A program made the translations under genes and the position numbers. A DNA stretch of 64,000 bases, from the NCBI RefSeq assembly GCF_937129525.1, contig NZ_CAKZNK010000087.1, positions 1-64,000 on the forward strand. The letters are read 5' to 3'. This document shows, piece by piece, positions 46,519 through 48,983 of the stretch; the first letter of the stretch is position 1; each line of letters starts with the position of its first letter. Origin of the DNA: an uncultured Chloroflexus sp. (GTDB taxonomy: Bacteria; Chloroflexota; Chloroflexia; Chloroflexales; Chloroflexaceae). The notes beneath the pieces were generated by a model, which saw only the letters and a list, made by a program, of their open reading frames with translations, did not search any database and had not been told where the DNA came from.

Positions 46519-47100
46519 CTAGCCATTTGACAACTGGTGGGTCAACAAGATCGCCTGGGCCACTTCCCGCATCGTCTTGCGGTTACGCATCGCCATTTGC
46601 TGAATCCGGCGAAACGCCTCGGCCTCAGTCAAACCGTGTTGTTCCATCAACACACCCTTTGCCTGCTCGATCTCTTTGCGTGTCTCAATCCGGTCACGCA
46701 ACGCCATCACCTCATTGCGACGCGCCTGATACATCTGCCAGCGCGCCAGGGTCACTTCGATCAAGGGCATCAACTCAGCATCGCGAAACGGTTTGATCAG
46801 ATAGCCAAACACACCGGCCATCCGCGCGCGCGCAGCCAGGTCTCGCGAAGCCGACGCGGTCAGCAAAATCACCGGCGCCACCTCCTCGTGGCACAGGATA
46901 GTTGCCGCTTCCAATCCATCAAGCTGCGGCATTTTGTAGTCAAGCAAGACCAGATCGGGGCGAAGCTGACGCGCCATCACAACCGCTTGCTGCCCATCTG
47001 CTGCTTCGCCAACAATCAGATAACCGAGCGACTGCAACGTTTCGCGTAGATGCATTCGAATCAGCGATTCATCATCAGCAATCAAGAGTCGCGCTGCCAT
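46519..47100 (-). CDS. Response regulator with ANTAR RNA-binding domain
   Basis: Receiver 'LLIADDESLIRMHLRETL'; ANTAR 'RKEIEQAKGVLMEQHGLTEAEAFRRIQQMAMRNRKTMREVAQAI'. Confidence 0.9.
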   Translation of the reverse strand: MAARLLIADDESLIRMHLRETLQSLGYLIVGEAADGQQAVVMARQLRPDLVLLDYKMPQLDGLEAATILCHEEVAPVILLTASASRDLAARARMAGVFGYLIKPFRDAELMPLIEVTLARWQMYQARRNEVMALRDRIETRKEIEQAKGVLMEQHGLTEAEAFRRIQQMAMRNRKTMREVAQAILLTHQLSNG

Positions 47101-47641: not shown

Positions 47642-47833
47642 GAGAAATTTCCCAATGCAATCGGAAGACCCTTAACTGCTCAGTTCGTAGAGGATAATAC
47701 TATCGCGTTAGTTGAATTCGTGTTGACAGAAGAGGGTGTAAGGGTTTCCTCGGAAAGACATTATCGTTTAGTGTCTCTCGATGACCTTTCAGAAGAGGAG
47801 ATTAAAGAATACAACCGACATCGCTTAACTTAA
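47642..47833 (+). pseudogene. Orphan C-terminal gene fragment
   Basis: Frame 2 reads ...NAIGRPLTAQFVEDNTIALVEFVLTEEGVRVSSERHYRLVSLDDLSEEEIKEYNRHRLT*, protein-like but with no start or upstream domain. Confidence 0.5.
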
Positions 47834-47990
47834 TCTTGCAATAATGGATAGATTATCATTTTCCCCTCTACCTCTACCCCGAAGCCGAGCGCAAAGACCT
47901 CTTTAGCGACCAGGAGCCGCAGGGGCGCCGGCCAAATCTGAAACCAGACCTGCTCGCGGTGCTGCAAAAGGCGTATACTTCCTCCCCCCA

Positions 47991-48100
47991 GCCCCCTCCC
48001 CGCGAGCCGTATAACCCCACCCCCGCACCCCCTCCTCGCGAGCCAGATAACCCCACCCCCACACCCCTCCCCACGAGCGGGGAGGGGTGTGGGGGGAGGG
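47991..48100 (+). repeat. GC-rich ~35/36 bp repeats ending in a perfect 17 bp inverted repeat
   Basis: CGCGAGCC at 48001 and 48037, CACGAGCG at 48072; hairpin CCCCCACACCCCTCCCC-ACGAGC-GGGGAGGGGTGTGGGGG (48056-48095). Confidence 0.88.
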
Positions 48101-48983
48101 GTCTTGGCGTACCCCGCCGCACCTCTGGGAAAAACTCAAGCCCCTCGCCCAGGAGATGCGTCGGCATCCCACACCTGCGGAGAAGATGTTGTGGCAACAC
48201 CTGCGGGATAAGCAACTCTTGGGATACAAATTCCGGCGTCAGCACACCATTGGGCGCTTCATTGTGGATTTCTATTGCCGGGATGCAGGGCTGGTCATTG
48301 AGGTGGATGGGCCTATTCATCAATATACCGCAGAGGAAGACGCAATCCGCCAGGAGTTCCTGGAACGTCAGGGATTGCGCGTATTGCGTTTTACCAACGA
48401 CCAGGTCTTCACCGACCTAACGAGTGTGCTGGCCGCCATTGGCCGGGCCTTGAAAGAATCGTCGGTCTCCGTTACTCCGGAGCAGGTCTTCCATTACATC
48501 TACGCCGTGCTATACGCCCCAACCTATCGGGAGAAATACGCCGACTTCCTGCGCCGGGACTTCCCCCGCATCCCCTTCCCCGCCGACCCTGAACTCTTTG
48601 CGGAGCTGGCCGCCCTGGGCAAGAAACTGGTCGCCCTGCACCTGCTCCGTTCGCCCGACCACGATCCGCCCCTCGCCCACTTTGAGGGGACGGGGGATAA
48701 CCGCGTGGTCAACGTCGCCTACGACGCGGCAGCGAAGAAAGTCTCGATCAACGAGACCCAGTACTTTGCGCCGGTTGCCCCAGACGTGTGGGAGTACACC
48801 ATCGGCGGTTACCAGGTGTGTGAGAAATGGCTCAAAGACCGCCGGGGCCGGTCACTCACCCTGGACGACATCCGCGCCTACTGCCGCATCGTCACCGCCC
48901 TGGCGCGCACAATGGAGATTCAGGCGGAGATTGACAAGCTGTATCCGCGCGTGGAGCAAACGCTGCTATCTCTGAAAACCTGA
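48087..48983 (+). CDS. DUF559 (Vsr-like endonuclease fold) domain fused in frame to a type ISP RM C-terminal region
   Basis: DUF559 motifs 'RRHPTPAEKMLWQHLRDKQLLGYKFRRQHTIGRFIVDFYCRDAGLVIEVDGPIHQ...DAIRQEFLERQGLRVLRFTNDQV'; then 'VTPEQVFHYIYAVLYAP...'. True start could be an internal ATG near 48156. Confidence 0.82.
   Translation: MWGEGSWRTPPHLWEKLKPLAQEMRRHPTPAEKMLWQHLRDKQLLGYKFRRQHTIGRFIVDFYCRDAGLVIEVDGPIHQYTAEEDAIRQEFLERQGLRVLRFTNDQVFTDLTSVLAAIGRALKESSVSVTPEQVFHYIYAVLYAPTYREKYADFLRRDFPRIPFPADPELFAELAALGKKLVALHLLRSPDHDPPLAHFEGTGDNRVVNVAYDAAAKKVSINETQYFAPVAPDVWEYTIGGYQVCEKWLKDRRGRSLTLDDIRAYCRIVTALARTMEIQAEIDKLYPRVEQTLLSLKT

Follow-up and report, generated by a model that had tools for sequence, protein, structure and literature searches.

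Palindromes that lie in frame within protein genes are known from the Rickettsia palindromic elements. To our knowledge, these elements carry no nuclease open reading frame (ORF) between their palindromes. They are named in a paper on REPIN/RAYT 'REPtrons', which combine short GC hairpins, a conserved tail and a gene flanked by the hairpins (PMC3733652). Among nucleases, DUF559, also known from YcjD, is a predicted PD-(D/E)XK enzyme related to Vsr (PMC1189080). I-Bth0305I is an EDxHD (Vsr-like) homing endonuclease (Taylor et al. 2011; reviewed in PMC3943268), which is longer than DUF559, has several domains and is grouped with mobile-intron enzymes (PMC3943268). Within a Thermosynechococcus genome paper, the section on inteins places a DUF559-containing gene in the EDxHD homing family (PMC9403480), and a Caulobacter study presents the DUF559 protein VsrA as a possible Vsr-like repair enzyme (PMC12907096).

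The locus described here lies in a window of 64,000 nucleotides, that is, the whole stretch of DNA that was analysed. A type ISP gene is interrupted in its target-recognition domain by an insert of about 494 bp (47977-48470), composed of a hairpin leader and a DUF559 ORF (Table 1). In intact homologues, the two ISP blocks are adjacent (L084, gap 0) or, mostly, joined by a short linker, and DUF559 is absent; the approximately 494 bp can thus be recognized as an insertion. This agrees with the first-pass annotation, which proposed a DUF559 insertion in a type ISP remnant, and the alignment to intact homologues that it advised provided the insertion boundaries. Its view that the blocks are normally contiguous holds for L084, while most homologues have the short linker. 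The joined-flank search matched 47851-47991, and the upstream block is 44% identical to L084 with a junction gap of 0; the downstream block shares about 45-52% identity with the closest intact ISP homologues. The remaining 5' part of the ISP gene is missing, so the host gene is a 5'-truncated remnant. Directly before it lies a short C-terminal fragment of another truncated gene (47648-47833, plus strand, ending in FPNAIGRPLTAQFVEDNTIALVEFVLTEEGVRVSSERHYRLVSLDDLSEEEIKEYNRHRLT and a stop), and a response regulator with an ANTAR RNA-binding output domain (PF00072 + PF03861) is encoded at 46519-47100 on the minus strand.

Table 1. Features of the interrupted type ISP gene in the window.
Feature	Position	Strand	Remark
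Upstream type ISP remnant, DYHFPLYLYPEAERKDLF...NLKPDLLAVLQKAY (ending LLAVLQKAY)	47851..47976	+	frame 1; joined-flank search
Insert 5' boundary: two degenerate copies and the tail of a third copy	47977..48055	+	
Left terminal hairpin, perfect 17-bp stem, CCCCCACACCCCTCCCC-ACGAGC-GGGGAGGGGTGTGGGGG	48056..48095	.	
ORF of 298 aa starting within the hairpin: DUF559 fused in frame with the ISP C-terminal part	48087..48983	+	
DUF559 nuclease domain (EDxHD/Vsr-like PD-(D/E)XK)	48132..48452	+	E 1.7e-36
3' junction: DUF559 tail KESSVS directly abuts ISP	48453..48470	+	
Downstream type ISP block, VTPEQVFHYIYAVLY...	48471..48980	+	PF18135 positions 181-339

The fused ORF matches the DUF559 profile (PF04480) over residues 16-122 (E 3.6e-36; 123.8 bits against a curated cut-off of 20.6) and Type_ISP_C (PF18135), the specificity domain of a type ISP host, over residues 115-278 (profile positions 181-339, E 6e-51). 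The first-pass annotation had assigned both ISP blocks to frame 1. This is incorrect: frame 1 holds for the upstream block, but DUF559 and the downstream block lie in frame 3, and the insert length is not a multiple of 3. Only the downstream half is consequently fused in frame. The GC-rich leader that it pointed out is real. The hairpin has a DNA folding z-score of -7.6 and is preceded by two degenerate copies, each consisting of an outer tail and half a hairpin (ACTTCCTCCCCCCAGCCCCCTCCCCGCGAGC; ATAACCCCACCCCCGCACCCCCTCCTCGCGAGC), which form direct repeats with spacings of 36 and 35. This 5' boundary coincides with the ACCTCACCCC boundary of the related loci L113, L118 and L152, and the right-hand hairpin present in L118 and L152 is missing from the window copy. 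The hairpin core (CCCCTCCCC-loop-GGGGAGGGG) occurs only once in the 4.48 Mb genome, at this locus, where it adjoins the sole DUF559 of the genome; a genome search pattern, CCCCTCNCCC, does not match the hairpin variant of the window. The explanation that we favour, and which seems reasonably probable, is that of a selfish DUF559 nuclease gene, bounded by inverted REP-like hairpins, that homes as a non-spliced in-frame element. It is also the most economical account, and the window unit would be a decayed copy of such a small mobile unit.

DUF559 is matched in 182 of 399 Chloroflexota genomes, strongly in 139. At most of the 30 loci inspected, there is an upstream hairpin with a tail and an inverted downstream copy. 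The sequences are lineage-specific, and the tails are of the CCCTCACCC type. Within 200 bp, stems of 8 bp or longer were present upstream at 68% and downstream at 55% of 79 loci, which were retrieved with the window's own domain and are biased to its relatives, compared with 6.2% of 1101 control windows drawn from the same loci. These loci include Cyanobacteria, Bacteroidota and Latescibacterota. Plasmid records from Deinococcota and Alphaproteobacteria display the same layout in several loci, not all, and the units of Deinococcus psychrotolerans and D. proteolyticus terminate in inverted repeats of roughly 50 bp or longer. On Deinococcus plasmids, the unit of one species is located between hpaE and an oxidoreductase gene, which overlap in the other species (empty state), and that of this other species between the oxidoreductase gene and hpaB of the same hpa operon. 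A target-site duplication was sought in this operon in Deinococcus, and none was resolved. Elsewhere, DUF559 is a free-standing ORF, and phages contain few copies (3 records).

In Nostocales, conservation extends 5' of the hairpin to a promoter and a start codon, which means that the hairpin does not mark the outer end in this group. The Nostocales copies occur in differing gene contexts, which may reflect ordinary rearrangement and are given little weight for this reason. Nostocales hairpins (L122, L123, L128, L135, L150, L156) have one conserved T.G mismatch (C.A on the other strand) at the same position of both ends; despite the chemistry of Vsr, no weight was given to it because T.G arises from any transition. 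Clusters of copies were also encountered. The DUF559 unit is tandemly duplicated in Nostoc sp. FACHB-110 (L151, 2249-2811 and 2940-3502), and five copies or fragments lie on one strand within 4 kb of G379 C14 (14.4-18.3 kb; L256, L260, L265, L270), with a similar cluster in G063 C1 (780-783 kb). A composite repeat in a Chloroflexus-like genome (L077 10225-10502; G007 C33, 99.4-101.4 kb) was left out of the analysis as it is made up of other repeats. BLAST matches to it number well over 100 in two genomes that share the genus of the window, it holds a CCCCTCTCCC hairpin pair, and a 90-base part of it recurs about every 113 bp near the contig end.

The number of hairpins in a genome is related to DUF559. 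Matches to CCCTCNCCC-loop-GGGNGAGGG had a median of 21 in the 139 genomes with a clear DUF559 versus 0 in the 217 genomes without it (p 1e-25, with kinship ignored). The tendency is also found within families (0.69, permutation p 0.002), with exceptions in both directions; G038 and G041 contain hundreds of hairpins and no DUF559. Such hairpin-rich genomes, the occurrence of solo hairpins and the G400 locus, where DUF559 has a complete hairpin pair on either side, would fit passive hitchhiking, in which a different enzyme moves the REP-like hairpins and DUF559 is either cargo trapped between two such hairpins or a gene that tolerates them. We consider this explanation unlikely. Symmetric two-sided flanks occur in several phyla with lineage-specific sequences, the sole hairpin core of the window genome adjoins its sole DUF559, and the purifying selection in MetH and the predicted homing-enzyme fold described below also speak against it.

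The strongest support for homing comes from MetH. In family f13, a Chloroflexota family other than that of the window, empty, hairpin-only and hairpin-DUF559 alleles exist at one MetH linker. The 13 DUF559 sequences residing in MetH form one clade (SH-aLRT 94), and their presence on the MetH tree (40 rows) corresponds to 11 changes, against a random expectation of 11.2. In AU tests, the MetH topology was incompatible with the DUF559 alignment (p 7e-4 for protein and 1.3e-4 for codons). Such a tree conflict indicates horizontal spread, and DUF559 is more similar than its host in G095/G379 (81% vs 71%) and G470/G095 (72% vs 57%), while both are congruent in G444/G458. The pN/pS of DUF559 in MetH is 0.25, equal to that of MetH, with pS near saturation; judged by these ratios, the nuclease is under purifying selection. 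Other in-frame inserts were seen at the MetH linker of f13 as well (L220-L223, L232, L233, L286; e.g., QVDTYTGTQVDT, GTGLAPVQGAGASPAPT), which suggests that it is a tolerant hot spot.

Taken together, the single clade, the random presence and the conflicting trees fit a homing signature, with repeated horizontal transfer into one site. Site-specific horizontal spread between alleles, as looked for in an EDxHD homing enzyme, is found at the MetH site. The homing-type character suggested by the first-pass annotation is thus supported by the MetH phylogeny and by the fold, and cleavage and mobility are putative. A single ancient insertion in MetH that was inherited vertically and lost many times, with no homing, is rather improbable. 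It would also leave one clade and congruent pairs such as G444/G458, but the number of changes is that of a random distribution, congruence is rejected by the AU test, and the nucleases of G095/G379 and G470/G095 are closer than their hosts. As far as these trees allow one to judge, the incongruence is not explained by vertical loss alone; part of the pattern could also be produced if MetH segments were repeatedly exchanged or precisely lost. By analogy, and given the recurrent use of the same linker, homing may extend to the ISP site of the window.

The nuclease domain itself was modelled with AlphaFold2 (pLDDT 90). Foldseek placed NGO0050 (3hrl, DUF559-like) first, followed by I-Bth0305I (3r3p; E 1e-4, TM 0.68/0.80), whereas the match to Vsr was weak (E 0.13). 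As modelled, DUF559 is nearer the homing endonuclease I-Bth0305I than Vsr. Residues E19, D48, E59, D61 and H65 (numbering of alignment A1) are intact in the window domain; within A1, E19, D48, E59 and H65 are invariant and D61 is nearly so. The match to 3r3p and this conservation are consistent with a predicted EDxHD/Vsr-like fold with conserved acids and a histidine. The PADLOC homing endonuclease model gave a weak match to L113 (3e-5), and TIGR00632 matched a Deinococcus relative only below its cut-off. It is improbable that the gene is a Vsr-like mismatch-repair gene, comparable to Caulobacter VsrA, that was rearranged near palindromes by chance. The YcjD (DUF559) profile is related to Vsr (PMC1189080), and VsrA has DUF559 and was functionally linked to a cytosine methyltransferase (PMC12907096). 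A repair gene is, however, difficult to reconcile with the patchy presence (182/399 genomes), with units inserted inside genes and with Vsr as such a weak structural match.

The range of host genes is wide. Long host frames with DUF559, mostly in frame, encode type ISP and type IIG enzymes, N6/N4 methylases, DUF1156 proteins, MetH, PyrF and a GltD-like oxidoreductase; in a CCA-adding enzyme, DUF559 is situated at the C-terminal end of the frame. Pfam scans of the host ORFs revealed no splicing domain. The first-pass annotation had envisaged a compact unit of DUF559 and GC-rich leader that lands in genes and is able to fuse in frame, and the search of other genomes that it recommended bore this out at many loci. 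DUF559 with hairpins was found inside type IIG, DUF1156, MetH, PyrF and GltD-like oxidoreductase genes, and occupied and empty alleles were compared. The ISP linker of the window is occupied in five records (the window, L113, L118/L075, L152 and L119). L113 has an uninterrupted frame of 1121 aa and contains the closest relative of the window's DUF559 domain in the scan (72%), L118 and L152 have the unit ends ACCTCACCCC...GGGGTGAGGT at this linker, and L091 has a solo hairpin there. A second ISP site is used in L077 and L145, where DUF559 lies before the specificity domain. In G274 (L075/L118), the ISP N part ends in a hairpin array, and DUF559 and the ISP C part are in another frame; this is a split gene resembling that in the window.

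As MetH, PyrF and the GltD-like oxidoreductase are also hosts, a preference for restriction genes and a link to type ISP alone were both rejected. A single ISP-specific DUF559 lineage is likewise unsupported (4 changes for 4 ISP rows). One DUF559 clade spans several unrelated host genes, which is looser than strict homing. The first-pass annotation named a stable DUF559 domain at this position as its own refutation, and the alignments do not bear this out. It is very improbable that DUF559 belongs to type ISP or other restriction enzymes as a stable nuclease domain with a function of its own and that no insert is involved: although it is in frame in several restriction genes and some other ISP genes do have it at the window's linker, homologues alignable across that linker in the joined-flank search are empty alleles without it, the same unit is found in MetH, PyrF and the GltD-like oxidoreductase, and it is framed by hairpin-coded peptides.

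In the selfish-nuclease account, the mobile unit would be a Vsr/EDxHD-type (DUF559) nuclease gene between inverted REP-like hairpins with short tails. Units of this kind lie in the linkers that join protein domains and between the genes of operons. Read-through of hairpins and ORF is possible, so that the unit may persist as an in-frame insert without an intron or intein. We infer that, most likely, the nuclease cuts an allele without the unit, or a hairpin already at the site, and that repair from the occupied copy then transfers the unit, which is homing. DUF559 would mobilise the hairpins in this way, and a solitary hairpin would be a remnant, a non-autonomous derivative or a target. The unit of the window would have landed in the type ISP target-recognition linker and afterwards lost its right hairpin, and the host would have lost its 5' part.

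By current thinking, a homing gene inside a conserved protein depends on an intron or intein for its survival. Here, the nuclease ORF and hairpins form an uninterrupted frame within MetH and other enzymes and seem to pass from species to species at a single linker. Should this hold, a common GC-rich palindrome family acquires a candidate mobiliser, DUF559 gains a testable role, and an explanation emerges for annotated proteins that have odd nuclease domains or low-complexity peptides.

In the open-access literature, searches brought up no earlier account of a non-spliced DUF559 element bounded by hairpins. Caulobacter VsrA is similar in its Vsr-like DUF559 domain, but it is a chromosomal gene with a proposed repair role, and the excerpts describe no element (PMC12907096). 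The Thermosynechococcus case differs in its intein context, and its intein section does not describe a hairpin-bounded, non-spliced element (PMC9403480). I-Bth0305I is the best functional structural match (3r3p) and resembles the unit in horizontal spread at one conserved site; in contrast, DUF559 here comprises only ~108 aa, is in frame and hairpin-flanked, and has no splicing domain in the Pfam scans. Rickettsia palindromic elements share in-frame palindromes within protein genes, whereas the DUF559 unit has a nuclease ORF between its hairpins. With REPtrons, the unit shares GC hairpins with a conserved tail, in paired and inverted arrangement, many solo copies and a gene between hairpins (PMC3733652). 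Hairpins that flank a gene, together with solo hairpins, are found for the DUF559 group, and the window genome has one hairpin core. The protein is, however, a PD-(D/E)XK DUF559 nuclease instead of an HUH tyrosine transposase (PMC3733652), and the tails are GGGTGAGGG/CCCTCACCC instead of GTAG. We tentatively suggest, as a possibility somewhat short of probable, that DUF559 with inverted REP-like hairpins represents a widespread, undescribed class of mobile elements whose members home, unspliced and in frame, into protein genes and seed genomes with solitary hairpins, a nuclease counterpart of REPIN-RAYT.
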